Part shown: positions 2,022 through 36,747 of the stretch, in pieces
Layout of the letters: the number at the start of each line of letters is the position of its first letter
How positions within the stretch are numbered: position 1 is the first letter of the stretch
NCBI GenBank assembly: GCA_018268575.1
Contig: JAFDWF010000201.1
Span: forward strand, 1-64,000
Direction of reading: 5' to 3'
From: Actinomycetota bacterium
GTDB taxonomy: Bacteria > Actinomycetota > Thermoleophilia > Solirubrobacterales > 70-9
DNA length: 64,000 bases
Position numbers and translations under genes: made by a program
Notes under the pieces: generated by a model
The model's input: the letters and a program-made list of their open reading frames with translations, nothing else
What the model was told of the DNA's origin: nothing
The model's database searches: none

Positions 2022-2060
2022 GTGCGCAGATTAATGCGAGTGGGTGAGGGGATACCTACG

Positions 2061-9216: not shown

Positions 9217-9225
9217 GACGCGATC

Positions 9226-21274: not shown

Positions 21275-21790
21275 TTGAGCGACCAGATAACGAACGAGTT
21301 CACCACCGATCAGGCGCAGCGCGAGGCGAGCGGTGCCCACAGCTACGGGCGCTATCTCGAGGAGTTCGAGGTCGGTGCGACGTACAAGCACTGGCCTGCG
21401 AAGACGGTCACCGAGTCCGACGACCACCTCTTCTGCCTGATCACGATGAACCACCATCCGCTCCATCTCAATGATGTCTACGCGGCGGAGTCGCAACAGG
21501 GCCGCAACGTGGTCGTCGGTCCGCTGGTCTACTCGTTGGCCCTCGGGATGTCGGTCTCCGACGTCTCGGGCAAGGCGATCGCCAACCTGGCGACCGAAGA
21601 GTTGAGCCACCCGAACCCGGTCTTTCACGGCGACACGCTCTTCTGCGAGACCGAGGTGCTCGAGGTCAAGCCGTCGAAGTCGAAGCCCGACCGCGGCGTG
21701 GTCAAGGTCCACACCCGCGTCTTGAACCAAGACGGCGTGCTGGTCGCCGAGTTCAAGCGGCTGGTGCTGGTTCCGAAGCGGCCCGCCTAG
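21275..21790 (+). CDS. mch: MaoC-family hydratase, probable mesaconyl-CoA hydratase
   Basis: A single hot-dog domain protein of 171 residues that would hydrate mesaconyl-CoA to methylmalyl-CoA. The start is TTG, set by AGGAGG. The catalytic region is KTVTESDDHLFCLITMNHHP, with the Asp and His of the MaoC hydratase motif, followed by GRNVVVGPLVYSLALGMSV, SGKAIANLATEELSHPNPVF and FHGDTLFCETEVLEVKPSKS. This pattern matches, as recalled, the short MaoC proteins next to ccr and ecm in streptomycetes; the proteobacterial enzyme has two such domains. The last 38 bp overlap the convergent flippase gene. Its malyl-CoA lyase partner is at 12082-13137. Confidence 0.8.
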   Translation: MSDQITNEFTTDQAQREASGAHSYGRYLEEFEVGATYKHWPAKTVTESDDHLFCLITMNHHPLHLNDVYAAESQQGRNVVVGPLVYSLALGMSVSDVSGKAIANLATEELSHPNPVFHGDTLFCETEVLEVKPSKSKPDRGVVKVHTRVLNQDGVLVAEFKRLVLVPKRPA

Positions 21791-23039
21791 CCAGCCGGCC
21801 CGCAACGATCGCGACGACGACCGGCTCGATCGCGCCGACGCCACAAGCGACTGCGGCGACGGCGACGACGCCGGCGACCGTCGCGATCCCGCCGGCGGCG
21901 ATCAGCTGTATGGCCAGCAGCGCCGTGTAGATCGCCGCCAGGAGTGGATAGCGCTTCTGGGACATCAGAAGGCCGGAGCTGGGCAGGGTCGCGTAGTTGA
22001 TCAGGGCCGGGACCAGCATGAACTCGAAGATCGGAACCGAGTCCGGATATCGGCCGCCGTCGACCAGCGGAATCGCAAACGGGGCAGCCACCGCGGCGAT
22101 GCCGATCAGGGCTGAGACCGGGAGGATGCTCTGCCTCATCCAGTTGCGGAGCATGTGGACCTGCGCCGCGGCCGAGTCGATCAGGTCGCTCTGCGAGGTC
22201 CGCACGCGCATCACGGCCAAGAGCGAGGGTAGGGGCCCCATGACGATTGCGATGTAGCGCAGCGCGGCGCCATAGCTGGCGACGGCGTCGTCATTGAGGA
22301 ATCCGGCGACGATGAAGATGTCGGCGTAGGCGAATCCCGCGGAGGCGAGGTAATAGAGCGTGAGCCAGCCAGACTCGCGGCCGAACTCGCGTGATACGCC
22401 CGCACCGAAAAGAGAACCTGCGCCGCTCCGGAGGAGCGGCACGCAGACGATTGCGCCCACCAGACAGGTGGCGCCCGCGACGGCTGCCGCGGTCACCGCG
22501 CCGGCATCGACGAACCCGGCCAGCGCAGCGATCCCGACGACGATCAGTGCACCGCCGCGGCCAACCCCGATCCAGCCTGCGCGGGCGAATGAGAGGTGGG
22601 CCTGGTGGTGGTAGACCCCCAGTTCGACCACGGCGTACCCGGCGGTGTAGGCGGCAGTGAGGGCAACAAAGAGAAGGCTTGACCCGACGCCTGCCCCGCC
22701 TGCGATCGCGACCCCGGCGATCGCCAGGGTGCCGATCGCGAGGACCAGCAGCAGGCTGGCCGCGATCGCGAGGCCGAAGCCGGTTGCTTCCTCGTCGCCG
22801 CGCGAGACGCGCTCGGCCTCGGTCCGCATGTAACGCATGCGGATGCCGCCGGTGAGCGCCGCCCCCGCGAATTGTCCGATGTTTAGGAACAGCACCAGAT
22901 AGGCGAACGAGCTCGTGCCGAGCGCGCGGATGAAGAAAACCGTCGCCAGGGCACTGAACCCGCGGCCGAGCAGGTCGAGGACGAACGTGGAGACGAATCC
23001 CCGGCGGAAAGTCGAGAGCTTTTTTCGTTGCTCGGTCAT
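21753..23039 (-). CDS. wzx: Polysaccharide flippase, Wzx-like
   Basis: A 428-residue integral membrane protein with about 12 hydrophobic segments that would move lipid-linked repeat units across the membrane. It opens with the basic MTEQRKKLSTFRRGF and then LGRGFSALATVFFIRALGTSS, the usual first helices of the polysaccharide-exporter branch of the MOP superfamily. Later segments include FAYADIFIVAGFLNDDAVASYG, a conserved substrate-channel region of these proteins. The gene is divergent from the Wzy-like polymerase gene by 49 bp and overlaps the MaoC gene at its 3' end. A second flippase is at 49631-51046. Confidence 0.8.
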   Translation of the reverse strand: MTEQRKKLSTFRRGFVSTFVLDLLGRGFSALATVFFIRALGTSSFAYLVLFLNIGQFAGAALTGGIRMRYMRTEAERVSRGDEEATGFGLAIAASLLLVLAIGTLAIAGVAIAGGAGVGSSLLFVALTAAYTAGYAVVELGVYHHQAHLSFARAGWIGVGRGGALIVVGIAALAGFVDAGAVTAAAVAGATCLVGAIVCVPLLRSGAGSLFGAGVSREFGRESGWLTLYYLASAGFAYADIFIVAGFLNDDAVASYGAALRYIAIVMGPLPSLLAVMRVRTSQSDLIDSAAAQVHMLRNWMRQSILPVSALIGIAAVAAPFAIPLVDGGRYPDSVPIFEFMLVPALINYATLPSSGLLMSQKRYPLLAAIYTALLAIQLIAAGGIATVAGVVAVAAVACGVGAIEPVVVAIVAGRLARRAASEPAPAA

Positions 23040-23088: not shown

Positions 23089-24429
23089 ATGCCGATAATC
23101 CCCAGTGCAGATGAGCTTCCCGATGCCGTACCGATTGCGATGAACCGCGCCGCGTCGCGTCTTCGAATCGACCTGCTCCCGACCCTCCTGGCCGGGGTCG
23201 GCGCGATAGTCGTCGGCGTCCTGGTGGTCAAATCGCCGCCGGCGGCGGTGGCTTTCGTCGGCCTGATTGCGGTCGGGATCGCGACGCTTCGCTACGGCAC
23301 CTTCGCTGCCGCCGCGTCGGCCTTCGCCTTGTTGCCATGGATGGTGACCTTCGAAGGCGTGCTGCCGAACCAGGTGGGGACCCTGATCGCCTCGGCCGGC
23401 ACCGCGGCGTTGCTGACGATGGTCTGGCCGCTCGAATTCGAGTCCCCTCTAATCCCCTTCTCCGCCTTCTTCTTCCTCGCCGTCACCCTCGGCCACCTGG
23501 CGCTCTCCTCGGACAAAGAAGACCTCTTCCAAGCCGCCAAGTACATCGACTTCGCCTTCGTGGCCTTGGCCGTCACCTCGTCCCGCGGCAGGCAGATGAT
23601 GCCCCGCTTCAAGCGTCCCGTCTACGGCAGCTGCGTTGCCGCGATGGGCGTCCAGCTGGTCGTGATTGCGGCCGGTCTCGGCAAGGTCGGGACCTACTAC
23701 CACGCCGGCGAGCGCCTCGGTTTCACCGGCGAGGCGCCTCATCCGCTCGCGCTGATGACGATGGTGATCGCCGCTGCCGGGCTCTGCACCAGCACCAGCC
23801 TGCGCAAGGGCCTCCTTTTCGCTATCGGCGCGGTGCCCTCGGCCTTCACCGGTGTCCGCTCTGCGCTGTTCGGGCTGGTCGCGGCGCTGCTCACCTTCGT
23901 CGGCAAATCTGACGCCAAGCTGCGCGCCGGGGTCGTCCTCGTGCTGATCGCCGCGGTCGCCTTCGCAACCGGTGCGCTCGACGTCCTCACCTCCAGGATC
24001 GCCAGCCAGGGCAACGAATTCTCCTCGCTGGCCACGGCGGGGTCTGGGCGCGGCGAGATTTGGACCGCGGCCCTGAACGGCTGGGACCACGCGGGGCCCT
24101 GGGCGTGGGTATTCGGCACCGGCCTGCGGACGATTCCCGCCTTCGAGTTGAAGGAAATCGGAGTCGAACTGATCGGCCACTCCGACATCGTCGAGGTGCT
24201 GGTCCAGTTCGGCGTCGTCGGCTTCGTCGGCTACCTAGGGATCTGGCTCGGGCTACTGCGCTCACCGGCGAACTCCATAGTCCTCGTCCCGATTCTCGCT
24301 TTCGGAGCAGTCAACGGATCACTCGAATACGTTTCGTCGCTGACCGTCGGGCTGGTCCTCGCGGCCTGCTTCGCCGACCGGCGTCGCCTGGGGCTTCCGG
24401 CGGCATCGGACTCGCCGCCCTCAGGCTGA
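23089..24429 (+). CDS. wzy: O-antigen ligase / Wzy-like polymerase
   Basis: A 446-residue membrane protein with about 11 hydrophobic segments and a large periplasmic loop near residues 300-370. The loop has the family arrangement SGRGEIWTAALNGWDHAG, VFGTGLRTIPAF and LIGHSDIVEVLVQFGVVGF, as in Wzy_C/O-antigen ligase proteins. It would polymerise the repeat units delivered by the adjacent flippase. ATG at 23089 is chosen because the hydrophobic core begins shortly after it. Upstream the frame remains open but overlaps the flippase gene. The 3' end overlaps the convergent C5-epimerase gene by 9 bp. Confidence 0.78.
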   Translation: MPIIPSADELPDAVPIAMNRAASRLRIDLLPTLLAGVGAIVVGVLVVKSPPAAVAFVGLIAVGIATLRYGTFAAAASAFALLPWMVTFEGVLPNQVGTLIASAGTAALLTMVWPLEFESPLIPFSAFFFLAVTLGHLALSSDKEDLFQAAKYIDFAFVALAVTSSRGRQMMPRFKRPVYGSCVAAMGVQLVVIAAGLGKVGTYYHAGERLGFTGEAPHPLALMTMVIAAAGLCTSTSLRKGLLFAIGAVPSAFTGVRSALFGLVAALLTFVGKSDAKLRAGVVLVLIAAVAFATGALDVLTSRIASQGNEFSSLATAGSGRGEIWTAALNGWDHAGPWAWVFGTGLRTIPAFELKEIGVELIGHSDIVEVLVQFGVVGFVGYLGIWLGLLRSPANSIVLVPILAFGAVNGSLEYVSSLTVGLVLAACFADRRRLGLPAASDSPPSG

Positions 24430-25404
24430 GCGACCCGCCCGCGAGAGGCGGAAGATGACCTTGTCCACGGCAGCGCGGGCGGTCCCGATGCGGGTCCGCT
24501 GGCTGCGCCAGCGCCGCGCATACCCGCCCAGCGCCGGATCGTGGGTGATCATCCCCAGCCCTTCGAGCATGGTCGGGTGGAGATCCTGGTAGAAGGGCTT
24601 GGCGAGGTCGGGGCGGCCACTGTGGTCGTAGAGGCTGTAGCGGGACCACCAGCCGAGGTCATAGCGGGGGAGCAACTCGACCACCCCGGCCGCGCTCCGC
24701 TCGAAGAGGACCCGAGCCTCGATGTCGTCGGTTGCGACGGTGAGCTCATGGACTCCCCATAAGGCGAATATCCAGCCGTTCAGAACCGCGCAGGGCTTTT
24801 TGGTCGGATACTCCTCGAGTACTAGGGCGCCGTCGAGTTCTCGCTGGGCTCCCCCGGCAGCGACCGGCACGTTTAGTGGTCCGAAGGACTGGCGGGCCAG
24901 CTTCAGGTAGTGATCCTCGCCGGTCAGCTGATGCGCACGCAGCAGGGTCGAGATCGCCTGCCCTTGCCCCATCGCCGAGATCCAGCCCGCGGCGAGGTCG
25001 TACTTGGCGACCGGCAGTCCCGTGCGCCAGACGAGGCCGATCTCCTCCTCGGCCGAGCGTTCGAGGAGCCAGTCGACGGCCTTCAGGAATTCGGCGTCGG
25101 TCGGCTCGCCGTCGAGCCGTCGCTCCCAGAGGCCGAGCGCGTACTGGGCGATCGGGATGATCCAGTCGTATTCGGAGTTCCGCATCCTCGCTTCCGTCAG
25201 ACGCGTCTTGCCGCTGAGGTCGCAGTAATAGCCTGCGATCCCCTTCGGGTCGACGTGGCGGCCGAGGGGCTGCGGGGAGAAGTCGATGCCGCCGCCGACC
25301 ATCGACAGGACCGCGCGTTTGGCTTCGATCACCGCCTTGACGGGCAGTGGTGGCTCGGGGACGGCCGCGGTCTCGCTCTCTCCGGCGGGTGCCAAGCCAG
25401 GCAT
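24421..25404 (-). CDS. D-glucuronyl C5-epimerase-like protein
   Basis: A 327-residue protein related to heparosan/heparan glucuronyl C5-epimerases, which convert glucuronate to iduronate in an assembled chain. The C-terminal domain shows the family pattern EEYPTKKPCAVLNGWIFAL, ARVLFERSAAGVVELLPRYD, LGWWSRYSLYDHSGRPDL and FYQDLHPTMLEGL. The N-terminal part has YYCDLSGKTRLTEARM and NSEYDWIIPIAQYALGLWE, an alpha/alpha-barrel layout. No signal peptide is visible, so it would act inside the cell or before export. The ATG at 25404 is preferred over a TTG at 25449 that overlaps the divergent gene. It is a key indicator that the polymer contains uronic acid. Confidence 0.75.
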   Translation of the reverse strand: MPGLAPAGESETAAVPEPPLPVKAVIEAKRAVLSMVGGGIDFSPQPLGRHVDPKGIAGYYCDLSGKTRLTEARMRNSEYDWIIPIAQYALGLWERRLDGEPTDAEFLKAVDWLLERSAEEEIGLVWRTGLPVAKYDLAAGWISAMGQGQAISTLLRAHQLTGEDHYLKLARQSFGPLNVPVAAGGAQRELDGALVLEEYPTKKPCAVLNGWIFALWGVHELTVATDDIEARVLFERSAAGVVELLPRYDLGWWSRYSLYDHSGRPDLAKPFYQDLHPTMLEGLGMITHDPALGGYARRWRSQRTRIGTARAAVDKVIFRLSRAGRSA

Positions 25405-25432
25405 TATGATCGCCAGGCTGTCTCGTCTGACG

Positions 25433-26521
25433 ATGCCCGTCTCCAGCAAGCAATCTCGCGGCCTTGCCGTCGCTTGTGTCAGTCTCGACCCGGCGGGCGA
25501 GGGCGGGATGGCAGAGGTCCTGCGCTCGCTGCTCGCCTCGCCACTGGCGGAGCGCTACCGGATGCGGATGATCGTCACCTACGCAATGGTCTCGCCGTGG
25601 CGGAAGCTGCTCCGCTTTGCCGCGGCCCTGGTCGAACTGGCGGTCTGGTGCCTTGGGGATGGGACGCGCATCGTCCACATCCAGGGGGCGGTGCGGGGGA
25701 GCCTTTACCGCAAGTCGGCCTGCGTGTTCCTCGCCCGGGCGCTGCGCCGGCCTGTCCTCTTCCAGATCCACGCCGGCCCCGGTGACATCGAGGACTTCGT
25801 CGATCGTCTCGACCCGATTCGGCGCGGTGTCTTCAGCGCCGCGCTGCGTCGTGCCACTCGGACCGTCGCCGTGTCCAGCGAGAGTGCCCAGGCGGTCGAG
25901 CGCTGCTTCGGCGTCGCCCGCGTCGGCGTCCTTGCCAACCCCGTGCCGCCGGTTGCCGGCGGCGGGGTGGATGTCGGTTCCCAGGGCGGCGCCCGGGTGC
26001 TGTACCTGGGAGGCTTTTTCGACCCCGCCAAGGGTGGCGCGGTCCTGGTCGAGGCCCTCGGGACGCTCGCTGCCGAGCGTCCCGATGACCATTTCCAGCT
26101 CCACGGCCCTGGAGATGCGCCGCCGGGGTTGGTGGACCTGGTCACCCGGACCGAGAACGTCGAGTGGGGCGGCTGGCTCGCCGCCGACGCCAAGCGCGAA
26201 GCCTTTCGCGCCGCCTCGATCTTCGTCCTCCCGTCGATCTCCGAGGGACTGCCGATGGCGCTGCTCGAGGCGATGGCCTGGGGCCGGGCGATCCTCGCCA
26301 CCTCGATGGGAGGCGTGCTCGACCTGGTCGCCGACGGCGAGGACGGCGTCCTGGTCCCGCCTGGGGATGCGCCCGCGCTTGCCGATGCTCTACGCCGCCT
26401 GCTCGACGATCCGGAGCTGCGCCGACGGATCGCGGCGGCTGCCGAGCGCCGCTCGGCCGACTTCACCGAGGACGCCGTCTGGGGCCGGCTCGGGACGATG
26501 TACGAGGAATTGTCGGCATGA
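25433..26521 (+). CDS. Glycosyltransferase family 4 (GT-B)
   Basis: A GT4 enzyme of about 362 residues. The N-terminal domain has GLAVACVSLDPAGEGGMAEV and HIQGAVRGSLYRKSACVFLA, then FQIHAGPGDIEDF. The donor domain has VLYLGGFFDPAKGGAVLVEA, VEWGGWLAADAKREAFRAAS and LPSISEGLPMALLEAMAWG with the E-x7-E pair. Two ATGs are possible (25406 and 25433). The second is taken because the first abuts the divergent epimerase start. The stop overlaps the ATG of the deacetylase gene (ATGA at 26518-26521), so the two are coupled. Confidence 0.83.
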   Translation: MPVSSKQSRGLAVACVSLDPAGEGGMAEVLRSLLASPLAERYRMRMIVTYAMVSPWRKLLRFAAALVELAVWCLGDGTRIVHIQGAVRGSLYRKSACVFLARALRRPVLFQIHAGPGDIEDFVDRLDPIRRGVFSAALRRATRTVAVSSESAQAVERCFGVARVGVLANPVPPVAGGGVDVGSQGGARVLYLGGFFDPAKGGAVLVEALGTLAAERPDDHFQLHGPGDAPPGLVDLVTRTENVEWGGWLAADAKREAFRAASIFVLPSISEGLPMALLEAMAWGRAILATSMGGVLDLVADGEDGVLVPPGDAPALADALRRLLDDPELRRRIAAAAERRSADFTEDAVWGRLGTMYEELSA

Positions 26522-27330
26522 ACCGGGTGAGCCGCGCCGGCCGCACCGCCGATGCCGTCTTCCTCGCCTACCACGCGATCGTCGCCGACGGCCCCGAATA
26601 CCTGTCTCTGAACCCACGGACTTTCGAGGCCCAGCTCGACTTTCTCCTCGCCAAGGGATATCGGAGCGGCACTCGGTCCGATCTCGAATCGGTTGCCGCC
26701 GGCCGTCGCCTGCCAGGGAAGACCGCATTCCTGACCTTCGACGATGGCTTCCTCGACACCTACGAGGTCGCCGCCCCGATGCTCGCCGGGCGCGGTTTCA
26801 CCGGCTTCGTCTTCGTCCTCCCACGGCACCTGGACGACGGCGCGGCGCTTGCCTGGCCCGAGGTCGACGGTGAGGTGCGCCGCCATCCCGCGACGATGCG
26901 CTCGATGACCTGGGAGATGGCCGCTGGGTTGGCTGCGGCGGGTTGGGAGATCGGTGCCCACACGCTCACCCATCCGCGGTTGACGGGGCTTGACGATGAG
27001 CGCCTGCGCGAAGAGCTGGAGGAGGGGAGGCGGCTGGTTGCCGACCGGCTCGGACGCTGCGATACCTTCTCCTACCCATTCGGCGCCTGGGACGCTCGGG
27101 TCGAGCAAGCTGCCGCCGACGCCGGGTATCGCTACGCCTTCACGCTGCCGATCGAGGCCCAGCCCGTCTCCGGGCCGTTGTCGCTCCCGCGGCTCACCGT
27201 CGACGACCGCGACACCGTGAACCGGTTCCGGCTGAAGCTCAGCGTCGCCGGACGCACGCTGCTTTTTTCACAGCTGCGTCCGACGATCAGGAAGTTGCGG
27301 CGTCACCAGGTGCATTCGAACGCCGAGTGA
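26518..27330 (+). CDS. Polysaccharide deacetylase (NodB/CE4)
   Basis: A 270-residue metal-dependent deacetylase that would remove N-acetyl groups from a polysaccharide or its precursor. The NodB domain is complete: catalytic and metal aspartates in LTFDDGFLDTY (about residues 78-88), the metal histidines in GAHTLTHPRLT (about 150-160), SYPFGAWD, and FTLPIEAQPV near the end. No signal peptide is visible, which is unusual for enzymes acting on exported polymer. It is translationally coupled to a GT4 gene and overlaps the convergent WecG-like gene by 44 bp. Deacetylation next to a C5-epimerase recalls the editing steps of glycosaminoglycan synthesis. Confidence 0.87.
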   Translation: MNRVSRAGRTADAVFLAYHAIVADGPEYLSLNPRTFEAQLDFLLAKGYRSGTRSDLESVAAGRRLPGKTAFLTFDDGFLDTYEVAAPMLAGRGFTGFVFVLPRHLDDGAALAWPEVDGEVRRHPATMRSMTWEMAAGLAAAGWEIGAHTLTHPRLTGLDDERLREELEEGRRLVADRLGRCDTFSYPFGAWDARVEQAAADAGYRYAFTLPIEAQPVSGPLSLPRLTVDDRDTVNRFRLKLSVAGRTLLFSQLRPTIRKLRRHQVHSNAE

Positions 27331-28075
27331 CCAGTTCGCGCAGCACCATGCCGACGAACTTGAAGTTCGTGAGCAGGTAGCGCTTACCGAGTCGCCGTGG
27401 TTCCTGCAGCATCCGGTAGGCCCACTCGAGCCCGGCGCGCTGGAGGTACTTCGGGGCGCGGGTGGTGACACCGGCGACGACGTCGATCGAGCCGCCCACG
27501 CCCATGGTGAAAGGGGCGCCAAGATCGCGGCCCAGCCGACCGAGGAAATGCTCCTTTCGCGGCGAGCTCATCGCGACGAAGAGGATGTCGGGCTTCGACT
27601 CGCGGATGGCTGCGGCGATGGCGTCGGTCTCGGCATCTTTGAAGTAGCCGTGCTGGCGCCCGGCGACGATGAGATCCGGCAGTTGTGCCCGTAGCTTTTC
27701 GATCGCCGTCTCCAAGACCTCGGGCTTGGCGCCGAGGAAGTAGACCCGGTAGCCGAGATTGTCAGCCGCCGCCAGCATCCTGTGCATCAAATCTATTCCC
27801 GCCACCCGTTCGGGCAGCGGGGTACCAAGCAGGCGGGCGGCCCAGACGACACTCTGGCCGTCGGCGGTGATCAGCCCGCAGGCCTCGACCGAGCGGCGCA
27901 GCTCCTCGTCGGTCCGCATCGAGACCAGCTTTGCCGCGTTGATGCTCATGTGCTGGAGGTAGCCGCGGGTGTCGATCGCCGCGCGGCAGCGAGCGACCGC
28001 CTCCTCCATGTCGACTGCGTCGAGGGGGGATCCGAGCAGGTGGACCCTGCCCTCGGTGGCGGGCGGGGCGGCCAC
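27287..28075 (-). CDS. WecG/TagA/CpsF family glycosyltransferase (GT26)
   Basis: A 262-residue transferase of the family that moves ManNAc or ManNAc-uronate from UDP onto a lipid-linked acceptor at the membrane surface. The GT26 core is seen in QHMSINAAKLVSMRTDEELR, ITADGQSVVWAARLLG with the catalytic aspartate, VYFLGAKPEVLETA, ILFVAMSSPRKEHFLGR and FTMGVGGSIDVVAG. The C-terminus is basic and amphipathic (LEWAYRMLQEPRRLGKRYL), fitting membrane attachment. The GTG at 28075 lies 7 bp downstream of the Wzz/kinase stop, so both belong to one operon. The donor is likely made by the epimerase and dehydrogenase elsewhere in the locus. Confidence 0.87.
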   Translation of the reverse strand: MAAPPATEGRVHLLGSPLDAVDMEEAVARCRAAIDTRGYLQHMSINAAKLVSMRTDEELRRSVEACGLITADGQSVVWAARLLGTPLPERVAGIDLMHRMLAAADNLGYRVYFLGAKPEVLETAIEKLRAQLPDLIVAGRQHGYFKDAETDAIAAAIRESKPDILFVAMSSPRKEHFLGRLGRDLGAPFTMGVGGSIDVVAGVTTRAPKYLQRAGLEWAYRMLQEPRRLGKRYLLTNFKFVGMVLRELVTRRSNAPGDAATS

Positions 28076-28082
28076 GATTGAC

Positions 28083-29687
28083 TCAGCCGCGGGCCCGGTC
28101 GGCCGGGTCGGGCACCTTGCCGTCGTCGGGGTCGGGCACCTTGCCGTCGTCCGGCCTTAGACCGGTCGACGGGGCCGACTTCTTGGCCGGGCGCTCGTGG
28201 GCGGACGTCGAGATCGGGATCGGACGGTAGTAGCTCGTCTCGCTCGGCCGCGGAGCGCCGTTGACGACGACACCGACCAGCGGCGCGTGTAGCCGCCGTA
28301 GGTGCACCCTCAGCTGCTCGACCGAGTCACGCGTGCTCTCGCCGAGGCGCGCGACCGTGAGCACCGCACCGACCCTGCCGAAGAGCGGCAAGGCATCGGC
28401 GACGAGCGCGGCCGGCGGGGTATCGATGATCACCTTGTCGTATCCGCCTTCGGCCCATTCGAGCAGCTTCGTCATCCGCTTGCCCTCCAGGAGCTCAGCC
28501 GGATTCGGAGGCAGCGGGCCGGCGGGCAGCAGGTCGACTCCGTTGACGGTGCGGATCGCGCTCTCGGGATGCTCGCCCTCCGCGAGGATCTTGCTTAGAC
28601 CAGGACCAGAGGTGGTCCCGACGACCTGAGCGAGAGTCGGGCGGCGCATGTCGGCCTCGATGACCAGGACGCGCTCACCGGCCGCAGCCGCCGCCCGGGC
28701 GAGGCCCCACGCGATCATCGTCTTGCCCTCTCGCGGCATCGCCGAGGTGAGGAGCAAGGAGCGTGACTGCCGCGTAGCGTCGATGTAGCGAAGGTTGGCG
28801 CGCAACATCATCATGGCCTCTCCGACCCCGGTATCGCCGCCGTCGCGGGAGTGCGACTTGGTGTTCGGGATCGTGCCCAGGATCGGCACGCCATAGAGCT
28901 CTTCGATCTCCTCGGGCCCCCGGATCCGCCGGTCGAACTGCTCACGGAGGAAGATGCCGGCAATCGCGAGCAGGATGCCGACGACGATCCCGAGGGCGAC
29001 ATTCCGCTTGGTGTTTGGCGACGACGGCGATTCCGGAGCGGTCGCCTTCTGCGCGATTTCGGCGCGGCCGGTCTGGATCGTTGCCAGTGCCTGTAGTTCG
29101 AGGACCCGCCGTTCGAGCGTCTTCCCGGCGGCGCCGTTTCGTTCCGTTTCTCCGAGGCTTTCCAGCTGCGCTTCGGCCAGCTTCTCGGCCCGCTTCACCT
29201 TGGCGGTTTCGATTTCGCGGCTGAAGGCGACGAACTGCTGGGCGAATTCGTTGGCCAGCCTCGCGGCGAAGGCGGGGGAGGGATCCGTAGCGGCGATCGA
29301 TACCAATTCCGATTCGCCCTCCGGGCTGACTTCGACTTTTTCACTGACCTCGCCCCCGGTCAGGCCGCCGCCCATCGCCTTGGCGGTGCGCACGGAGAGC
29401 GTCGTCAGCGAAGCGAGTTTGAGGTTGGTCGCGGCTTCGCGCGCCGGATCGGCGTTGGCGGCCGGTTCGACTCCGAGGAGGCCTGCTTCGACCGTCTGGT
29501 TGGTGAAGAGGAGGGACGCGGAGGCGGTGTATTCCTTCGTCTGGGTCTTCGAGTAGGCGAACGCGACGATCGGTGCAACGACGATGCAGATCAGGGCGAT
29601 GCGCCAGTTGCGGCGCAGGATCCCCAACTCGCGTCGCAGCGCCAGCTTGTCCTCGGGTCGGTCGGTGGGCATCTGGGGGGTGGGCAT
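28083..29687 (-). CDS. Wzz-type copolymerase fused to bacterial tyrosine kinase
   Basis: A 534-residue inner-membrane protein controlling chain length and export. Residues 15-130 are the Wzz domain with TM1 (WRIALICIVVAPIVAFAY), a coiled-coil periplasmic region follows, and TM2 is near 230-250 (VALGIVVGILLAIAGIFL). The cytoplasmic kinase has the Walker A region TSAMPREGKTMIAW (about 314-327), Walker A' VLVIEADMRRPT and Walker B KVIIDTPPA. The C-terminal tail has only one tyrosine pair (ETSYYRP) instead of the usual tyrosine cluster, and ends in a duplicated acidic motif, DDGKVPDP. It lies between the priming transferase and the WecG-like gene. Confidence 0.88.
   Translation of the reverse strand: MPTPQMPTDRPEDKLALRRELGILRRNWRIALICIVVAPIVAFAYSKTQTKEYTASASLLFTNQTVEAGLLGVEPAANADPAREAATNLKLASLTTLSVRTAKAMGGGLTGGEVSEKVEVSPEGESELVSIAATDPSPAFAARLANEFAQQFVAFSREIETAKVKRAEKLAEAQLESLGETERNGAAGKTLERRVLELQALATIQTGRAEIAQKATAPESPSSPNTKRNVALGIVVGILLAIAGIFLREQFDRRIRGPEEIEELYGVPILGTIPNTKSHSRDGGDTGVGEAMMMLRANLRYIDATRQSRSLLLTSAMPREGKTMIAWGLARAAAAAGERVLVIEADMRRPTLAQVVGTTSGPGLSKILAEGEHPESAIRTVNGVDLLPAGPLPPNPAELLEGKRMTKLLEWAEGGYDKVIIDTPPAALVADALPLFGRVGAVLTVARLGESTRDSVEQLRVHLRRLHAPLVGVVVNGAPRPSETSYYRPIPISTSAHERPAKKSAPSTGLRPDDGKVPDPDDGKVPDPADRARG
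28107..28154. repeat. Two tandem 24-bp units inside the kinase tail
   Basis: The unit GTCGGGCACCTTGCCGTCGT plus four bases is present twice in direct tandem (28107-28130 and 28131-28154) with a single change near the end of the second. It encodes the duplicated DDGKVPDP near the kinase C-terminus and looks like a recent slippage duplication. Confidence 0.8.
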
Positions 29688-29723
29688 CTTAGCTAGGGGT
29701 CCTCAAGGCGAGATTGGATGAGG

Positions 29724-31181
29724 TCAGTAGGCACCCCGCCCCGACAGCACGGCGGGGAGGGTGGCAAGCAGGATCTCGATGTCGCGGGCAAGGGACCAGC
29801 CGGCAACGTATTGGTAGTCGAAACGGACCATCTCCTGGAAGGGGCTCTGCGAGCGGCCGTAGATCTGCCAGGGGCCGGTCAGGCCAGGTCTCAGCTCGGC
29901 CCGGCGCAGGTGCCAGTCTTCGAGCGCTTCGGCCTCGCGGAAGATGATCGGTCGCGGACCGACGAGGCTCATGTCGCCGCGGAGGACGTTGAACAGCTGC
30001 GGCAGCTCGTCGATCGAGGTTCGCCGGATCAGCCTGCCGACCCTGGTGATCCTTGGGTCGTCGCGGATCTTGAACATCACACCGTCGGTCGATTCGTTCT
30101 CTTTTTCGAGTGCCGCCTTGCGCTCTTCGGCGTCCGCGTACATGGAGCGGAACTTGAGCACCTCGAACGGTTCGTTGTGGCGGCCGGCGCGGCGCTGGCG
30201 GAAGAAGACCGGCCCGCGGGACTCGATCCGGATCGCCGCGGCGATCCCGAGCAGGACGGGGGAGAGGACGACGAGCGCGACTGCCGAGCCGGCGACGTCG
30301 ACGATCCGCTTGGCGATCCGCGCGCTGCGGGTCAGGCGCGCCGGGCCGAGCGAGATCAGCGGCAGGCCGCCGACCTGGTCGAGGGCGCGTGCGCCGTCGA
30401 GGAACTCGAATAGGCGCGGGACGACGTCGATCGCCACGCCCGCATCCCGGCAGGTGCGGATCGCGTCCAGAAGCTCTACGTGGCTGGCCCGGGAGAAGGC
30501 GATGATCACGCGGGCGATCTGCCGGCTGCTGAGGAGTCGCGACAGTTCGGAGAAGCCGCCGAGCAACGGAAGGTCGACTTCGCCGACCGGATGGAATTCG
30601 TCATCGACCATGCCGATTGGTACGAGGCCGTACTGGTCGTTGTTGCGGAGCTTGCCGACCAGCTGTCCGGCGACCACTCCGGAGCCGAGGATCAGGGTCC
30701 GCTGGCGCAGGTCGGTGACCCGGTGGATGCGCGTGCGGACGATCGTGCGGCCGATCGAGTCGAAGATCCCGAGGAGGGCGACACAGCAGACGGCCGTGAT
30801 CGCGGGTGATCCGAGATCGAGAGCGGCGGCGGCGACGAACACGGGCCAGCTGAGCAGGAGGAGGCCGACGCAGAAGGGCGCCACTTCGTTGAGTGAGGAG
30901 GCCCAGGATCCAAGTCGGTCACCACTGTGCAGGCCGAGAGCGAAGGAGAAGAAGCTCCACAGCAACGCGGTCATCAGGGCGAATCCGATGATCGCAAGAA
31001 TGCTGGCGCCCGGCTCGAAGATCACCGCCGCGATCACCGCGGCGAGAAGCGAGGAGATCAGGTCGGAGACCCAAAGACGATGCGAAAGAACGACGCCGCG
31101 GCGTCGTGCCTTCGAGGCGGAGGCTGGAACGCGCAACTCTCGGGCTTTCGCGCCCGCGCTGGCTGCGGTCGAACTCTCCAT
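29724..31181 (-). CDS. Polyprenyl-phosphate sugar-1-phosphate transferase (WbaP/EpsE family)
   Basis: The priming enzyme that loads the first sugar phosphate onto undecaprenyl phosphate. The 485 residues show the full architecture: four hydrophobic segments (about 38-140), a CoA_binding_3 domain (LILGSGVVAGQLVGKLRN to GVAIDVVPRLFEFLDG), a fifth membrane segment (KRIVDVAGSAVALVVLSPVLL) and the catalytic domain. The catalytic domain has FRQRRAGRHNEPFEVLKFRS, RRTSIDELPQLFNVLRGDMS, VGPRP and GLTGPWQIYGRS. ATG at 31181 is chosen over the adjacent GTG at 31184; GAAAGAGA precedes it. It compares directly with the chimera at 10223-11848, which has the same N-terminal half. Confidence 0.9.
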   Translation of the reverse strand: MESSTAASAGAKARELRVPASASKARRRGVVLSHRLWVSDLISSLLAAVIAAVIFEPGASILAIIGFALMTALLWSFFSFALGLHSGDRLGSWASSLNEVAPFCVGLLLLSWPVFVAAAALDLGSPAITAVCCVALLGIFDSIGRTIVRTRIHRVTDLRQRTLILGSGVVAGQLVGKLRNNDQYGLVPIGMVDDEFHPVGEVDLPLLGGFSELSRLLSSRQIARVIIAFSRASHVELLDAIRTCRDAGVAIDVVPRLFEFLDGARALDQVGGLPLISLGPARLTRSARIAKRIVDVAGSAVALVVLSPVLLGIAAAIRIESRGPVFFRQRRAGRHNEPFEVLKFRSMYADAEERKAALEKENESTDGVMFKIRDDPRITRVGRLIRRTSIDELPQLFNVLRGDMSLVGPRPIIFREAEALEDWHLRRAELRPGLTGPWQIYGRSQSPFQEMVRFDYQYVAGWSLARDIEILLATLPAVLSGRGAY

Positions 31182-31366
31182 CACTGGTCTCTTTCGTCAA
31201 ACGGGGGGCTGACCCGAGGTTCTTCCTGGGGAGGGATGCTCACGCTTGTACATATCGTCCTCATGGAACGAACCTTGAGCATGGGAAGGGTCCTTCATCA
31301 CCTTAGAGGGCGGCGGCCCGCGGCGTGTCGACTGGCTCGTAATCTGGGCGAGACCCGCCAAATGGC

Positions 31367-32419
31367 CTAGTTGGCCATGACGGCGGCGAGCGAAGTCCCG
31401 ACGACGATGTTGTCGTGTTCGACAATGCTGACGCCAGTGCTCGAGATGCTTCGGTAGATGCCGGCCTTGAGGTAGGTTTCGGCAGTCTGGATGGTTTCGC
31501 CGTACATCCGGATCTGGCCGTTGAGCAGCGTCTGCTGGACTCCGTCGAGCCAGAGTTCGACAAAGCCTTCGCTCGGGTTGCGCTCGAGGTTGACGCGGTA
31601 GACCAGGTCGTACCAGCGTTCCTGTTCGAGCTGCGGGCCGCGCCAGTACGTCGGCGAGCCGTCGCCGGCGCCGAAGCTGATCGAGCGGTTCGAGTCGAGG
31701 AAGGTGGCGATCCCCGGGGAGCCCGACCACGGCTTCTCGTGCAGCTGGTCGATCAGCTGCCAGGGGCCCTGGAACGTGTAGCCGACCGGTACGCGGATGT
31801 CGTCGCGCACGTAGATGTCTTCGCCTTCGTGAAACGTCGGCCCGGTGACCTCGGAGCGCTGTGAGCCGGTGTCCGGCTCGACGTCGCCCGGCTGTACTTC
31901 GAAGCGGCCCGCGGCGCTGCCCTCATAGGGATGCGCGCTGTTGATCGTGGCGCGATAGGACAGCGACTGCACGTACCAGCCGGAGAAGCTGCCGTCGAAG
32001 AGGCCCTCGAAGATGACCTTGCCTTCCGGGGCGGGAGCCGGGAGCGGGGCGACCGGTTCGCTTGGGGTGGTCGGTGGGGCCGGGGTCGTCGGCGTGGTGG
32101 GCGTGGTCGGCTTGGTCGTGCCCGAGTGCTTCGAGCCGCTCGACGAGCCGCCACCTTCGACCGAGGCGCTCTGGCCGATGCCGGTCGTGCCGCTGCTGCC
32201 GGCGCTCGGTGCATCCGAGCCGCGGCTCTTGCCCGACCTGGTGGCGCGTTGGCTGCTCAACCGGTGCGCGCCCACCTTGCCTGGGGTGGCGCGGTGGCGA
32301 CGCTTGTGGGCGCTCCCACCGTCGCGCCCGTGGCCTGCGGCGCCGGCGCCGGCAGGTACCAGGAGGGCGCAGCAGATGAGGAGGACGAAGGCGGCGGACG
32401 GACTCCGAAGCGTTTTCAT
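31367..32419 (-). CDS. Secreted heparin-lyase-like polysaccharide lyase, copy 1
   Basis: A 350-residue exported protein with a signal peptide (SAAFVLLICCALLVPAGAGA). A low-complexity Ser/Thr/Pro linker follows to about residue 130, including repeated TTP triplets, then a beta-jelly-roll domain of about 215 residues. The domain resembles the heparin lyase I/PL20 group: GDVEPDTGSQRSEVTGPT, IYVRDDIRVPVGYTFQGPW, LIDQLHEKPWSGSPGIATFL and RWYDLVYRVNLERN. It would depolymerise a uronate polymer or release the chain. A paralogue lies 268 bp upstream on the same strand, separated by an inverted-repeat element. A palindromic box lies 75 bp upstream of the start. Confidence 0.78.
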   Translation of the reverse strand: MKTLRSPSAAFVLLICCALLVPAGAGAAGHGRDGGSAHKRRHRATPGKVGAHRLSSQRATRSGKSRGSDAPSAGSSGTTGIGQSASVEGGGSSSGSKHSGTTKPTTPTTPTTPAPPTTPSEPVAPLPAPAPEGKVIFEGLFDGSFSGWYVQSLSYRATINSAHPYEGSAAGRFEVQPGDVEPDTGSQRSEVTGPTFHEGEDIYVRDDIRVPVGYTFQGPWQLIDQLHEKPWSGSPGIATFLDSNRSISFGAGDGSPTYWRGPQLEQERWYDLVYRVNLERNPSEGFVELWLDGVQQTLLNGQIRMYGETIQTAETYLKAGIYRSISSTGVSIVEHDNIVVGTSLAAVMAN

Positions 32420-32493
32420 GCCCTGTCATCGGAGGCCTCCTCACGCTTCTGACCGGGGCCACGTCGCGATGGACGCTATGGCACCGAGCCCGT

Positions 32494-32505
32494 GGACGTT
32501 TGTCC
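32494..32505. promoter_or_regulatory. Perfect palindromic box GGACGTTTGTCC
   Basis: A 12-bp sequence with 4-bp arms, GGAC and GTCC, located 75-86 bp upstream of lyase copy 1. Two one-mismatch versions occur at 902-913 and 926-937 upstream of the GH26 gene. A shared operator for secreted polymer-degrading enzymes is inferred. Confidence 0.4.
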
Positions 32506-32520
32506 TGTCGAGGGGCGGGA

Positions 32521-32690
32521 CTAGATGATTGATTCCTAATCCCCGCACACCCGGATGACGGGCCTGACACGGCGCATCTCTGCGTCCTCGGGCTTGCCTT
32601 TGCCCACCGGCAGAGGCTGCGCCCTGCGTCCTTGACCTGCTTGGTCAGGCCCGCCCCCGGTCACACGCGGATTAGGAATCAGTCATCTAG
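32521..32690. mobile_element. 170-bp MITE-like element with 22-bp terminal inverted repeats
   Basis: The left end, CTAGATGATTGATTCCTAAT plus CC (32521-32542), is the reverse complement of the right end at 32669-32690 with a single mismatch. Both ends finish in CTAG, which could be a 4-bp target duplication around an element with 18-bp repeats. Inner arms also pair (GGGCCTGAC with GTCAGGCCC). It has no coding capacity. It lies between two paralogous lyase genes, and its right end contains the stop codon of copy 2. Size and ends suggest a miniature transposable element mobilised by an absent transposase. Confidence 0.6.
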
Positions 32691-33532
32691 TGAGGCAGTT
32701 GGGTGATCACCAGCGAGTCGTCTTCGATCCGACTGACGCCTTCGCTGTACCGCGAGCGATAGATCCCGGTCTTCAGGTAGGAGTGCGGCATCTGCTGGGT
32801 GAAGCCATATTGCCGGAAGTGGCCGTTGCGTAGACGCTGGTGCTTGCCGTTCAGCCAGACTTCCATGAACCCGACCTTCGGATTCTGGGAGAACTTCACC
32901 CGGTAGGTGAGGTCATACCAGCGGTTCTTGACCAGCGGCTTCGATTGCCAGTCGAGCTCGCTCGCGTCCCCGTGGCCGATTCTGATGCGGCGATCGGAGG
33001 TGAGGAAGATCGCGGTGCCCGGCGAACCGCTCCAGCCTTCGGCCTCGTGGAACTGCTGAATCAGCTGCCAGGGACCGTGGAAGGTGTTGTCCTTGGGGAC
33101 GCGGAAGGCAGTGCGAACGTAGATGTCGTCGCCTTCTTCGAAGGTGGGTCCGGTCCCCTCGGCGCGTTGCGAGCCGGTTTCCGGCTCGATGTCACCGGGG
33201 CGGACTTCGAAGAGGGCGTTGCCGTTTCCTTCGTAGGGGCTGTTGTGAACGATGCGGACACGGTTCGGCAGCGCCTGCATGAACCATTCTGGGAAGCTGG
33301 CGTTTTCGAAGTTGCTGACGAAGACCACGCGGCCCGGCATGTGTGGATTCTGCAGCTGGGCCGGATTGGCCCTGACCTCCGCGGAGGTCGTGGTCGATCG
33401 GGCCCCGCCGCTGGCGCTGTCGGTGCTGCCGCAGGAGACGAGCACGACGATGATCGTGGCCAGCGCGGCGACGAAGGCCGCAGCCCGGAGCAGGGAGGCC
33501 CGGCCGGAAGTGGGGGCGCGGCGCGCAAACAC
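32687..33532 (-). CDS. Lipoprotein heparin-lyase-like polysaccharide lyase, copy 2
   Basis: A 281-residue paralogue of copy 1 with the same jelly-roll domain: GDIEPETGSQRAEGTGPT, IYVRTAFRVPKDNTFHGPW, LIQQFHEAEGWSGSPGTAIF and RWYDLTYRVKFSQN. In place of the long linker it has a lipoprotein signal ending in the lipobox LVSC (about residue 34), so it should be tethered to the outer face of the membrane. The tail ends HLP-H-stop, with the TAG inside the right end of the inverted-repeat element. One copy free and one anchored suggests division of labour in cutting the polymer. Confidence 0.78.
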   Translation of the reverse strand: MFARRAPTSGRASLLRAAAFVAALATIIVVLVSCGSTDSASGGARSTTTSAEVRANPAQLQNPHMPGRVVFVSNFENASFPEWFMQALPNRVRIVHNSPYEGNGNALFEVRPGDIEPETGSQRAEGTGPTFEEGDDIYVRTAFRVPKDNTFHGPWQLIQQFHEAEGWSGSPGTAIFLTSDRRIRIGHGDASELDWQSKPLVKNRWYDLTYRVKFSQNPKVGFMEVWLNGKHQRLRNGHFRQYGFTQQMPHSYLKTGIYRSRYSEGVSRIEDDSLVITQLPH

Positions 33533-33577
33533 GCTTTCGAGTCTAGGCGGGAAGCCTAAATATCCCTTGATGTCGCA

Positions 33578-35506
33578 TCACGGGCGAGTGCTGAGGCAGA
33601 GGCGGAGCTCGAAGACGTTCTCGCCGGGGGCACTGCGCCCGCGCGCGCGAAGGAAGGGCCGTGCTTCTTTGACGCCATAGCGCGGCGAGGAAAGGCCTTC
33701 GACGACCTCGAACTCGAGGCCCGCGGCCTCGACCAGCATCGTCGTCGCCTCGAACTCGACCTTGGCGATGTCTGGCCCTGGCTCGATGCTTTGGCTCGAC
33801 GCGAGCGGGAAGTTCCACACGAGATCCTGCGGTGCGGCGCACTCGACCGTGTCGAGGATGGTCAGCACTGGCCCGGTGGGGTCGAGCTCGACCCGACGGG
33901 TGTAACGAAGCGGCGTGGCCAGTTGCTCGAAGCCGCGGTGTCGGCCATAGAACGTAGGGCGGGGATCCTCGGGCCGCCACTCGAGTGCCTCGGCCCTCGT
34001 GCGGTCGCCGAGTGGGAAGCGGGGCGGCTCGGGAAGGCGATTCTGCTCCTCGCCGTCAGGCTGCATGGTGGCGTGGAACCCAGTCGATCGGAAGAGCTTG
34101 CGCAAGCGCGCGTCGGGCGCGTAGCGGTACGCGCCAGGGTCCTCGATCAGCGGCTCGCCGCGGTAGCAGAGCTCGAAGGAGAGCTGATCGTTGTGGGCGT
34201 GGCCACCCTCGCCCCCGAGTCCGGTATCCCCACAGCGGATCAGGAGGTAGATGTCGCCGCGGCGGAGGACGAAGTAACCACCGTCGGGGAAACCGATCGA
34301 ACTTGGCGCCGGTGGCGGGTCTCGATCGGCCTGGGCGAAGAGGTGGAGGTGAGAGCGGGGATCGGCCTTGCCGTAGTCGCCCAGCGGCAGGAAGCGGCCG
34401 TCGTCGTTGTCACCGAGTTGCGGCGCGAGGCCGTCGGGCCGGGTGTAGGCGGCGACGAAGTCCAGCATCCGGTCGAGCTTTTGCTCGAAGGAAGTCGGGA
34501 GCGTCGCGCCGGGAGCGGCTCGCAGGACGTCGGCGCCGCAGAGGAACAGCTCGGTGACGAGGCGGTGGTACGGGATCGAGGCCTCGTGGCTGCAACCGTC
34601 GTCGCGTACCTCGTGCTCGATCTCGGCGAGCAACTCGTCCTTTGCCCATGCCAGCCACCCCGCACCCTCCTCGCCCGCCGCGAAGAGGGAGGCGACGACG
34701 AGCAGGCCGACGACGTCGGAGAGATAGTGGTTGCTGCGCACCGGCGCCCACTCGGGGTGGCTGCGGATGAAGCGGCCATGCAGCAGGAGGCTGGCCGCGA
34801 CCGGTTGCGCCCAGCGCTCGGCGGCCGCCTCGGGGGCGGCGATGACGAGCGCCGCGATCCAGTTCGCCGCCCGGATCGCGACATCCATGGTGCAGACCCA
34901 GTTGACCCCGAACTCGACCGGGTTGGCCTCGATCCAGCCGGTCAGTTGAGCGCCAAGCTCATCCAGGTAGAGGTCGTCACCGCTCAGTCGAAATGCGGCC
35001 GCCAGAAGCGGTAGGTGCTGGAACCGCGAGAGCTCCCACGGCATCTTCACGTCGGCGCCGGGGACGTAGGTCGACAGAAGGTCGCTGTGCTTCACCGGCC
35101 AGCGGTGGCCGTGGATGAAGTCGACGCTCCAGTCGATCGTCTGCCCGAGCTCGGTGGGCCCCGAGCCGAGCAAGTCGAAGCGGTGCGCCACGATCGCGTC
35201 GGCCCGGGCCAGGAGGTCCCGGCGGCCTTCGTCGTCGAGCGTTGCCAGCAGGCGCTCGAACCGCATGACGGTGGGCAGTGCTTGCAGGGCTGGGCCTCGA
35301 AGCGCGTCGCCGAGCGCGATGCCGCCGAGCGCCTGTCGCAGCTCGTCCGGACCAACGGCTCGCGGTCGCCGGGTGAGGCGCCAAGCGCGCGCGTGCGCGC
35401 GGAGTGGATCGACGGTGCGGCGACGGACGGCATCCGCGATCCCGCGGGGGCCGGCGGAGCGCAATCGTCCCACCAAAGCGTCGGGGCTGCGTCGGATCGA
35501 GTTCAA
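33578..35506 (-). CDS. Heparinase II/III family protein
   Basis: A 642-residue polysaccharide lyase with an N-terminal alpha/alpha-toroid (about residues 80-330) and a C-terminal beta-sandwich domain. The toroid has IDWSVDFIHGHRWP, SRFQHLPLLAAAF, NPVEFGVNWVCTMDVAIRAAN, FIRSHPEWAPVRSNHYLSD and SHEASIPYHRLVTELFL with the likely catalytic His/Tyr. The sandwich domain shows FPDGGYFVLRRGDIYLLIR, GGHAHNDQLSFELCYRGEP and EDPGAYRYAPDA. No signal peptide is apparent. Such proteins are common in bacterial exopolysaccharide loci. The start is TTG at 35506, with ATG absent nearby. It is divergent from a glycosyltransferase gene by 59 bp. Confidence 0.87.
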   Translation of the reverse strand: MNSIRRSPDALVGRLRSAGPRGIADAVRRRTVDPLRAHARAWRLTRRPRAVGPDELRQALGGIALGDALRGPALQALPTVMRFERLLATLDDEGRRDLLARADAIVAHRFDLLGSGPTELGQTIDWSVDFIHGHRWPVKHSDLLSTYVPGADVKMPWELSRFQHLPLLAAAFRLSGDDLYLDELGAQLTGWIEANPVEFGVNWVCTMDVAIRAANWIAALVIAAPEAAAERWAQPVAASLLLHGRFIRSHPEWAPVRSNHYLSDVVGLLVVASLFAAGEEGAGWLAWAKDELLAEIEHEVRDDGCSHEASIPYHRLVTELFLCGADVLRAAPGATLPTSFEQKLDRMLDFVAAYTRPDGLAPQLGDNDDGRFLPLGDYGKADPRSHLHLFAQADRDPPPAPSSIGFPDGGYFVLRRGDIYLLIRCGDTGLGGEGGHAHNDQLSFELCYRGEPLIEDPGAYRYAPDARLRKLFRSTGFHATMQPDGEEQNRLPEPPRFPLGDRTRAEALEWRPEDPRPTFYGRHRGFEQLATPLRYTRRVELDPTGPVLTILDTVECAAPQDLVWNFPLASSQSIEPGPDIAKVEFEATTMLVEAAGLEFEVVEGLSSPRYGVKEARPFLRARGRSAPGENVFELRLCLSTRP

Positions 35507-35565
35507 CCACGGTGGAATCTAGTCGGGCGGGTGCCGATCGATCGTCTATTCTCGCCGCCGACCGG

Positions 35566-36747
35566 ATGACGGAGCCCTCGGCCGCCAAGCCTGCCGCCAC
35601 AACGAGCCGTCGTCGGATGGTCGTCGTTTCCGGGTTCGGCGATGACCTGATGACCCCACGGGGTCAGCGCACCCAGCATCTGATCGAGGCGCTCGGGGTG
35701 GAGTGGGAGGTCGAGCTGATCGCGATGCCCGCCCAAGGACACCGGGGCGGTGGCGGCACCAGCGGCCGCAGCCTCGCCCGCCGCTTTGCCAGCTGGGGCG
35801 TTCAGCAGGCGCTCTTCGACCGCTGGGAGCCATGGGCGCGCAAACGCTTCTCGCGTTGGCTGCCGGGCGCCGACGCCGCGGTGCTGATCGTCGCGCCATG
35901 GTCGCTCGCGGCGATCGCCGCGCCACGACTGCGGGCGGCGGGCATTCCTTACGTGATCGATGCCGGCGATCCGTGGACGGTCGGCATGGCTGACTTGGAG
36001 CGCACGCTTGCCGTCCGCCGTGGACTTCGTGCGGAGAAGCCGATCTGGGGCGCCGCCGCCGGGGCGATCCTGACGACGCCCCAGCAGGCGTCAAGGATGG
36101 AGGCGAAGTACCCGGATCTGCCGATCATGGCGCGGCCGAACGGGTACGAGCTGCCCGCGGATGCGATCGCGCCGGCCGAGCGGCCCGCTTCCGATCCCGG
36201 GGTCCTGCGGCTCGTCCACCTAGGTGTCATCTACGCGGCGCGGCTCGACATCATGCCGCTGCTCGTCAATCTCAGGGACAGCGGCCGCTGGGAGACGATC
36301 CGATTCGACCAGTTCGGCGCCGATCCCGAGGGGATGCTCGCCGATGCGCCGGCCGGGATCGAGGTCCACAACCACGCGGCCATCCCGTGGCCTGAGGTCG
36401 TGGCGCGCACCGCTGAGTTCGACCTTGCCGTGGTGCTCGGCAATGAGCTCGGCGAACTGCTGCCGAGCAAGGCGATCCAGTACCTGACCCTGCCGATCCC
36501 GCGGATCGCCGTCACCGACACCGAGCGCGACGACGCGCTGACCGACTTCGCCGGTGACCACACGGCCTGGCTCGCCGTCGCCCCCGGAGATCCCGAGGCC
36601 GCTCGACTGATAGCCGACCACGTCGCTCATGCCTGGACCACCGCCGAGCTGGAGCCGCCGCAGGCGGACTCATGGCCCGCGGTTGCCACTGATCTGGCGA
36701 CCTTCGTCGACCGCTGCGTCTCGGCGACGCCCCGGGAGGGCCGTTAG
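35566..36747 (+). CDS. Glycosyltransferase, GT-B fold
   Basis: A 393-residue GT-B enzyme, less typical than the other GT4 proteins here. The N-terminal domain begins MVVVSGFGDDLMTPRGQRTQ and has AAGIPYVIDAGDPWTVGMAD. The second domain has LRLVHLGVIYAARLDIMPLL, the aromatic and acidic contact stretch GIEVHNHAAIPWPEV, then FDLAVVLGNELGELLPSKAI for donor binding. No signal or membrane segment is seen. The ATG at 35566 follows a weak purine run and gives 59 bp to the divergent heparinase gene. The stop overlaps the convergent asparagine synthase gene by 4 bp. Confidence 0.75.
   Translation: MTEPSAAKPAATTSRRRMVVVSGFGDDLMTPRGQRTQHLIEALGVEWEVELIAMPAQGHRGGGGTSGRSLARRFASWGVQQALFDRWEPWARKRFSRWLPGADAAVLIVAPWSLAAIAAPRLRAAGIPYVIDAGDPWTVGMADLERTLAVRRGLRAEKPIWGAAAGAILTTPQQASRMEAKYPDLPIMARPNGYELPADAIAPAERPASDPGVLRLVHLGVIYAARLDIMPLLVNLRDSGRWETIRFDQFGADPEGMLADAPAGIEVHNHAAIPWPEVVARTAEFDLAVVLGNELGELLPSKAIQYLTLPIPRIAVTDTERDDALTDFAGDHTAWLAVAPGDPEAARLIADHVAHAWTTAELEPPQADSWPAVATDLATFVDRCVSATPREGR

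Follow-up and report, generated by a model that had tools for sequence, protein, structure and literature searches.

Which polymer is made by a bacterial exopolysaccharide locus that encodes a relative of the human glucuronyl C5-epimerase GLCE together with a deacetylase and several lyases, and at what stage is this polymer edited? The question is raised by a polysaccharide locus at approximately 19.2-38.6 kb of a 64,000-nucleotide stretch (hereafter the window; positions 1 to 64,000 of contig JAFDWF010000201.1, assembly GCA_018268575.1) of an actinomycetotal bacterium of the order Solirubrobacterales, family 70-9. The source genome is a 4.3-Mb draft of 226 contigs (87% complete), and its closest relatives by sequence are metagenome-assembled genomes (MAGs) labelled Actinomycetota. 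An initial annotation, made from the sequence alone, had proposed a glycosaminoglycan-like exopolysaccharide, edited and trimmed by enzymes of its own locus. All of the genes that it had named were found where it had placed them, and our analysis leans toward the editing of lipid-linked units in the cytoplasm, followed by export and polymerization and then by extracellular trimming by lyases of family PF14099.

The locus opens with a methyltransferase gene, and a gene for a MaoC-like protein lies between those of the dehydrogenase and the putative Wzx; the other genes follow in the order given here. The two PF14099 proteins are designated PLa and PLb; L-numbers (e.g. L006, L061) label loci in related genomes and G-numbers the genomes.

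19956-21203, minus strand: nucleotide-sugar 6-dehydrogenase of the UDP-N-acetylhexosamine (HexNAc) type (TIGR03026, 427 bits; nearest to 4R16 and Cap5O)
21753-23039, minus strand: putative Wzx flippase (approximately 10 hydrophobic segments, position; no family match)
23089-24429, plus strand: Wzy-type polymerase (Wzy_C; PF04932, 39 bits; 9 hydrophobic segments)
24421-25404, minus strand: GLCE-family C5-epimerase-like protein, 327 residues (PF06662, 135 bits against a cut-off of 23.3)
25403-26521, plus strand: GT4 glycosyltransferase (4-base overlap with the NodB gene)
26518-27330, plus strand: NodB/CE4 polysaccharide deacetylase, 270 residues (PF01522, 78 bits)
27287-28075, minus strand: GT26 glycosyltransferase of the WecG/TagA/CpsF family (Pfam, 212 bits; TIGR00696, 150 bits, cut-off 69)
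28083-29687, minus strand: Wzz/Wzc-type chain-length protein with a kinase-like domain (PF02706)
29724-31184, minus strand: polyprenyl-phosphate sugar-1-phosphate (priming) transferase (PF02397; TIGR03025, 376 bits)
31367-32419, minus strand: PLa, PF14099 polysaccharide lyase with a Sec-type signal (68 bits; hydrophobic N terminus)
32687-33532, minus strand: PLb, PF14099 jelly-roll polysaccharide lyase with a lipoprotein-type signal (LVSC; 81 bits)
33578-35506, minus strand: heparinase II/III family protein, 642 residues (PF07940, 115 bits; PF16889, 72 bits)
35404-36747, plus strand: GT4-like glycosyltransferase, true start probably downstream (PF13579, 26 bits, below the cut-off)
36744-38609, minus strand: asparagine-synthase-like (AsnB-like) amidotransferase of the exopolysaccharide-locus type (PF00733; TIGR01536 above the cut-off; TIGR03108, 449 bits, below the cut-off)

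The gene order from the dehydrogenase to the heparinase II/III protein is kept in three congeneric MAGs (L006-L008), and the cluster is therefore not an assembly accident. In L064 and L066, the AsnB-like and second GT4 genes come after this core order.

The product of 24421-25404 is predicted, by both alignment and structural modelling, to be a GLCE-family epimerase with a conserved catalytic site and fold. It aligns over most of the PF06662 profile and matches human GLCE (6HZZ) with E = 1.4e-21. In the HMMER alignment, its residues E198, Y199, Y256 and Y272 are the equivalents of Glu499, Tyr500, Tyr560 and Tyr578 of the human protein, so that the catalytic glutamate and tyrosines, on which the initial annotation had made its reading depend, are retained. 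In human GLCE, the enzyme that supplies the iduronic acid of heparin in animals, Glu499 and Tyr578 serve as proton donor and base (PMC12834895). Across ten bacterial relatives, no substitution occurs at Y256 or Y272 and E198 is found in at least 90%; Y199 is not invariant. The AlphaFold2 model (predicted local distance difference test score, pLDDT, 87) superimposes on human GLCE (6I01/6HZZ) with a Z score of 30.4 and a root-mean-square deviation of 2.6 over 262 residues at 30% identity, compared with Z 15.9 for the best unrelated fold, which bears out the earlier epimerase assignment. Chance similarity or a pseudo-epimerase is ruled out by the catalytic residues, the fold and the 71-82% identity to the copies of congeners. 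The window epimerase shares with human GLCE the PF06662 domain, the fold and the four residues named above, but it is much shorter than the human protein (617 residues), lacks the N-terminal beta domains and membrane anchor of the animal enzyme, carries Tyr in place of Arg563, and is probably cytoplasmic. A second, longer PF06662 type with a signal-like N terminus was found in L092, L094, L095 and L096 (approximately 9-11 kb each). This type is apparently widespread (some PF06662 match is present in 168 of 232 genomes of the order), and the replacement of its EEY motif (e.g. by YLQYSF) makes its activity doubtful.

The NodB protein, also correctly named at the outset, carries the metal-binding Asp-His-His motif of CE4 enzymes (FDDG at residue 74, HTxxH at residue 148) and is PgaB/IcaB-like in PDB and NCBIfam comparisons. 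Its association with the epimerase was assessed in 23 loci of the order with an exopolysaccharide-type epimerase, some of them interrupted by contig ends, and in control loci of the same order lacking this gene, 59 centred on a priming transferase (PGT) and 20 centred on Wzz/Wzc. A NodB gene was present within approximately 10 kb in 17 of the epimerase loci versus 6 PGT-centred and 8 Wzc-centred controls. The strong enrichment suggested by the PGT-centred controls alone (odds ratio 25) is thus tempered by the Wzc-centred ones. Gene arrangement provides stronger evidence for pairing than the count excess: in L059-L061, L068, L157, L158, L166 and L009 the epimerase and NodB genes are direct neighbours on the same strand and their frames overlap. 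NodB is a recurrent partner of the epimerase in other genera. In L062:10624-12471 (G045:C11) a single frame of 615 residues contains both an epimerase (residues 38-331) and a NodB domain (360-604), each confirmed by Pfam; this fusion was met once, in one assembly, where a sequencing indel may have joined adjacent genes. When the fusion protein was used as the query against 396 genomes of the phylum, separate genes only and no further fusions were retrieved.

Beside the epimerase-NodB pair of another family of the order, a right-handed beta-helix protein is encoded (L068:9601-11013; PF13229), and L157:11152-12564 encodes a protein that is similar to it, as judged by size and position alone. Proteins of this type could be additional lyases or epimerases.

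Export was judged by hydropathy, as the highest 19-residue mean of the N terminus. A hydrophobic N-terminal segment is lacking in all 24 epimerases and all 18 NodB proteins examined (top mean 1.46) but is present in both PF14099 lyases, with means of 2.33 for PLa and 2.60 for PLb, the latter with LVSC as a lipobox-like sequence. Because the epimerase and NodB lack it, we infer that epimerization and deacetylation would take place in the cytoplasm, on the lipid-linked unit. Since PLa and PLb alone appear to be exported, only the PF14099 lyases would meet the exported polymer, and post-polymerization editing as in animals is probably not what occurs. The idea of editing and trimming within the locus thus holds for the reality of the enzymes and for the export of the PF14099 proteins; no signal was seen in the epimerase, in the deacetylase or in the heparinase II/III protein.

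PLa and PLb, described by the initial annotation as exported and heparin-lyase-like, both match the PF14099 profile, and the modelled fold of PLb (pLDDT 73, with low values for the first 45 residues) places it among heparin, glucuronan and alginate lyases. Foldseek placed glucuronan lyase 2ZZJ first (E = 1.3e-8), followed by ulvan lyase and heparin lyase I, and the VIA comparison gave Z scores of 18.0 for heparin lyase I, 16.8 for glucuronan lyase and approximately 15 for alginate lyases. The motifs SxR, QxH and YLKxGIYR are kept in all eight aligned PF14099 copies, including PLa; PL7 alginate lyases have similar catalytic motifs. PLb has its fold and its Pfam family (PF14099) in common with heparin lyase I (PL13) and glucuronan lyase (PL20), but its core is smaller (approximately 220 residues versus 370 in PL13) and it is encoded in a synthesis locus rather than a degradation locus. 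The link to the epimerase recurs: in the family to which the window belongs, 7 of the 12 epimerase-bearing genomes have a PF14099 gene at most 20 kb from the epimerase gene (chance probability 0.01-0.06 for each of these proximities under random gene placement), and such genes occur in 7/23 epimerase loci of the order versus 1/79 controls.

The heparinase II/III assignment was likewise upheld. The closest solved structures by sequence are PL12 heparinases III (E = 8e-14), and the sequence alignment indicates that the PL12 catalytic Asn, Tyr and His are kept (N259/H260, Y313 and the HAHND motif). Hydropathy revealed no signal peptide in this protein, and the presence of such an enzyme in a synthesis locus (33578-35506, with similar genes in related loci) makes its site of action puzzling.

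A priming transferase, a Wzy polymerase and a chain-length protein were all found, as expected for a Wzx/Wzy-dependent locus. The complete Wzx/Wzy set claimed earlier stands for these components, and Wzx itself is a putative assignment based on position and hydropathy-derived architecture. The 21753-23039 product matched no Pfam or NCBIfam family; it is 85-87% identical to its counterparts in L006-L008, and BLAST finds no similarity between it and the Wzx of L061.

From these data we infer substrates, an order of steps, a site of action and lyase roles as follows. The repeat unit of a Wzx/Wzy exopolysaccharide would include an N-acetylated amino sugar as well as a uronic acid, and would be assembled on undecaprenyl phosphate in the cytoplasm by the priming transferase, the GT4 enzymes and GT26. 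Before flipping and polymerization, NodB would strip an N-acetyl group from the lipid-linked unit and the GLCE-type epimerase would invert the uronic acid at C5, from D-gluco to L-ido or from D-manno to L-gulo. The edited units would then be exported and polymerized, and PLa and PLb would shorten completed chains or set them free outside the cell. The heparinase II/III protein, with no export signal, may have this uronate, or else misrouted material, as its substrate inside the cell.

Several points weigh against this model. Wzx has no sequence-based family assignment, and an export signal invisible to hydropathy is possible. The NodB excess is modest against the Wzc-centred controls (p = 0.03; p = 0.007 when these are pooled with 11 Wzc-positive PGT-centred loci), and both values ignore the phylogenetic dependence among the loci. 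The epimerase and NodB genes of the window lie on opposite strands, with a GT4 gene between them. The animal epimerase and the alginate epimerases act on polymer and not on lipid-linked units, and to our knowledge no chemistry has been reported for any polymer of these bacteria.

Known systems offer partial parallels. The alginate locus encodes the AlgG epimerase and the AlgL lyase together with the synthesis genes, which resembles the combination of C5-epimerase and lyases described here, but its epimerase belongs to an unrelated family and epimerization takes place on the periplasmic polymer of a synthase-dependent pathway. Agl32 of the archaeon Halobacterium converts glucuronic acid (GlcA) to iduronic acid (IdoA) on a lipid-linked glycan before transfer and is structurally unlike GLCE (PMC13308652); it works in the manner proposed here, but is an unrelated enzyme outside the GLCE family. 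RED65_08024 of Bermanella marisrubri, reported in 2026 as the sole characterized bacterial glucuronyl C5-epimerase (its natural polymer is not known; PMC4432689; PMC13308652), is, as far as its description allows comparison, likewise a bacterial GLCE-type enzyme thought to act on an exopolysaccharide.

An alternative, closer to the initial annotation, is a heparosan-like polymer, in which a backbone of GlcA and N-acetylglucosamine (GlcNAc) acquires L-iduronic acid after polymerization, NodB uncovers amino groups on the polymer and every lyase of the locus cleaves the uronate polymer. The GLCE-type catalytic site, the resemblance of PLb to heparin and glucuronan lyases and the ability of the Bermanella relative to convert GlcA to IdoA in vitro (PMC4432689) are in line with it, as is the canonical UDP-glucose dehydrogenase encoded on another contig of the genome (L075). 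However, no heparosan-synthase-type GlcA/GlcNAc machinery was found in the locus, whose glycosyltransferases are of the GT4 and GT26 types and accompany a Wzy polymerase; no sulfotransferase is present in the window; the epimerase and NodB lack export signals; and the dehydrogenase of the locus is of the HexNAc type. We therefore regard this alternative as unlikely, and membership of the window itself in a heparan sulfate pathway was rejected, given the missing synthase type and sulfotransferase. What is left of the glycosaminoglycan-like proposal is the epimerase, the recurrent deacetylase and the exported lyases of acidic polysaccharides. Equally doubtful is the view that this is a generic exopolysaccharide locus, in which NodB, the heparinase II/III protein and the AsnB-like protein are common Wzy passengers that need not share a substrate, the epimerase being the sole special component. 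The NodB genes of the Wzc-centred controls and the frequency of AsnB-like and GT4 genes in Wzy loci speak for it, but it does not account for the adjacent epimerase-NodB pairs of several genera and the one fusion, the concentration of PF14099 genes in epimerase loci, or the order conserved in L006-L008.

The identity of the uronate is a separate matter. The locus dehydrogenase scores best with the UDP-HexNAc group, i.e. with the UDP-N-acetylmannosaminuronic acid (ManNAcA) dehydrogenase 4R16 (239 bits) and Cap5O (218 bits), ahead of CalS8 (176 bits) and UDP-glucose dehydrogenases (at most 133 bits). The deduction of GlcA as the substrate from a "UDP-glucose dehydrogenase" label was therefore rejected, and an N-acetylhexosaminuronic acid is a candidate for the uronate; GlcA/IdoA is still conceivable because of the dehydrogenase of L075. 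Judged by similarity, the in-locus dehydrogenase, GT26 and a WecB equivalog (3260-4387, in a neighbouring glycan cluster of the window) would fit ManNAcA, with N-acetylgulosaminuronic acid (GulNAcA) as the product, as well as GlcA, with IdoA as the product. In the former case the dehydrogenase would supply UDP-ManNAcA, GT26 would transfer the sugar and the epimerase would convert it to L-GulNAcA, which the AsnB-like enzyme may amidate. Besides the dehydrogenase and WecB, the GT26 family itself, which includes the ManNAcA transferase WecG, agrees with this route. On the other hand, in other genera most epimerase loci lack the dehydrogenase, in G037 it flanks a different locus together with its neighbours and so may serve other glycans, and we know of no GLCE-family enzyme that accepts an N-acetylated uronate. 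L-GulNAcA does occur in a bacterial exopolysaccharide, with C5 inversion of D-ManNAcA as its proposed origin (PMC3901696). On balance we consider the ManNAcA route rather improbable as a rival; it can be a substrate variant of cytoplasmic editing. As a separate observation, the AsnB-like amidotransferase (36744-38609, minus strand) could amidate the carboxyl group of a uronic acid.

Sulfotransferases (PF13469/PF00685) were detected inside the epimerase loci L059-L061 of a sister genus (g7), L063 and L167. In L061:15990-18696, three of them lie in a row beside the epimerase-NodB pair and Wzx. Their excess in epimerase loci (5/23 versus 1/79 controls, the latter being L181) is suggestive only, as the query set came from L061 and sulfotransferases are common in the order (129/232 genomes). 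In the control L181:1147-5094 (G150:C56), a polysaccharide locus with no epimerase, four sulfotransferase-like genes lie in tandem. It is tempting, though speculative and in our opinion improbable, to assume that the order has a heparan-sulfate-like logic of its own, in which a paired cytoplasmic C5-epimerase and N-deacetylase (fused in one species) would act on lipid-linked units and the sulfotransferases of the same loci in sister genera would then sulfate the product, giving a sulfated, iduronate-containing polymer edited before polymerization. According to a 2015 review, no sulfation had been seen among bacterial glycosaminoglycans (PMC4432689).

Neither the gene combination nor its recurrence nor the fusion appears to have been described in the searchable literature, most subscription journals excepted. 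Epimerase loci tied to a deacetylase, lyases and, in some genera, sulfotransferases make bacterial iduronate polymers directly testable. They would also be a source of epimerases that are compact, cytoplasmic and N-terminally reduced, useful in the production of heparin-like material, and would demonstrate editing on lipid-linked units in bacteria.

Two further regions of the window were distinguished. The neighbouring glycan cluster (924-11848, minus strand) encodes, apart from WecB, a GT4 enzyme, an acetyltransferase and three GT2-type proteins. The region 44945-49656 (plus strand) encodes two tandem, exported-looking proteins of the glucose/sorbosone dehydrogenase type, the first (44945-46993) with a PF07995 match and the second recognized by eye through its resemblance to the first.

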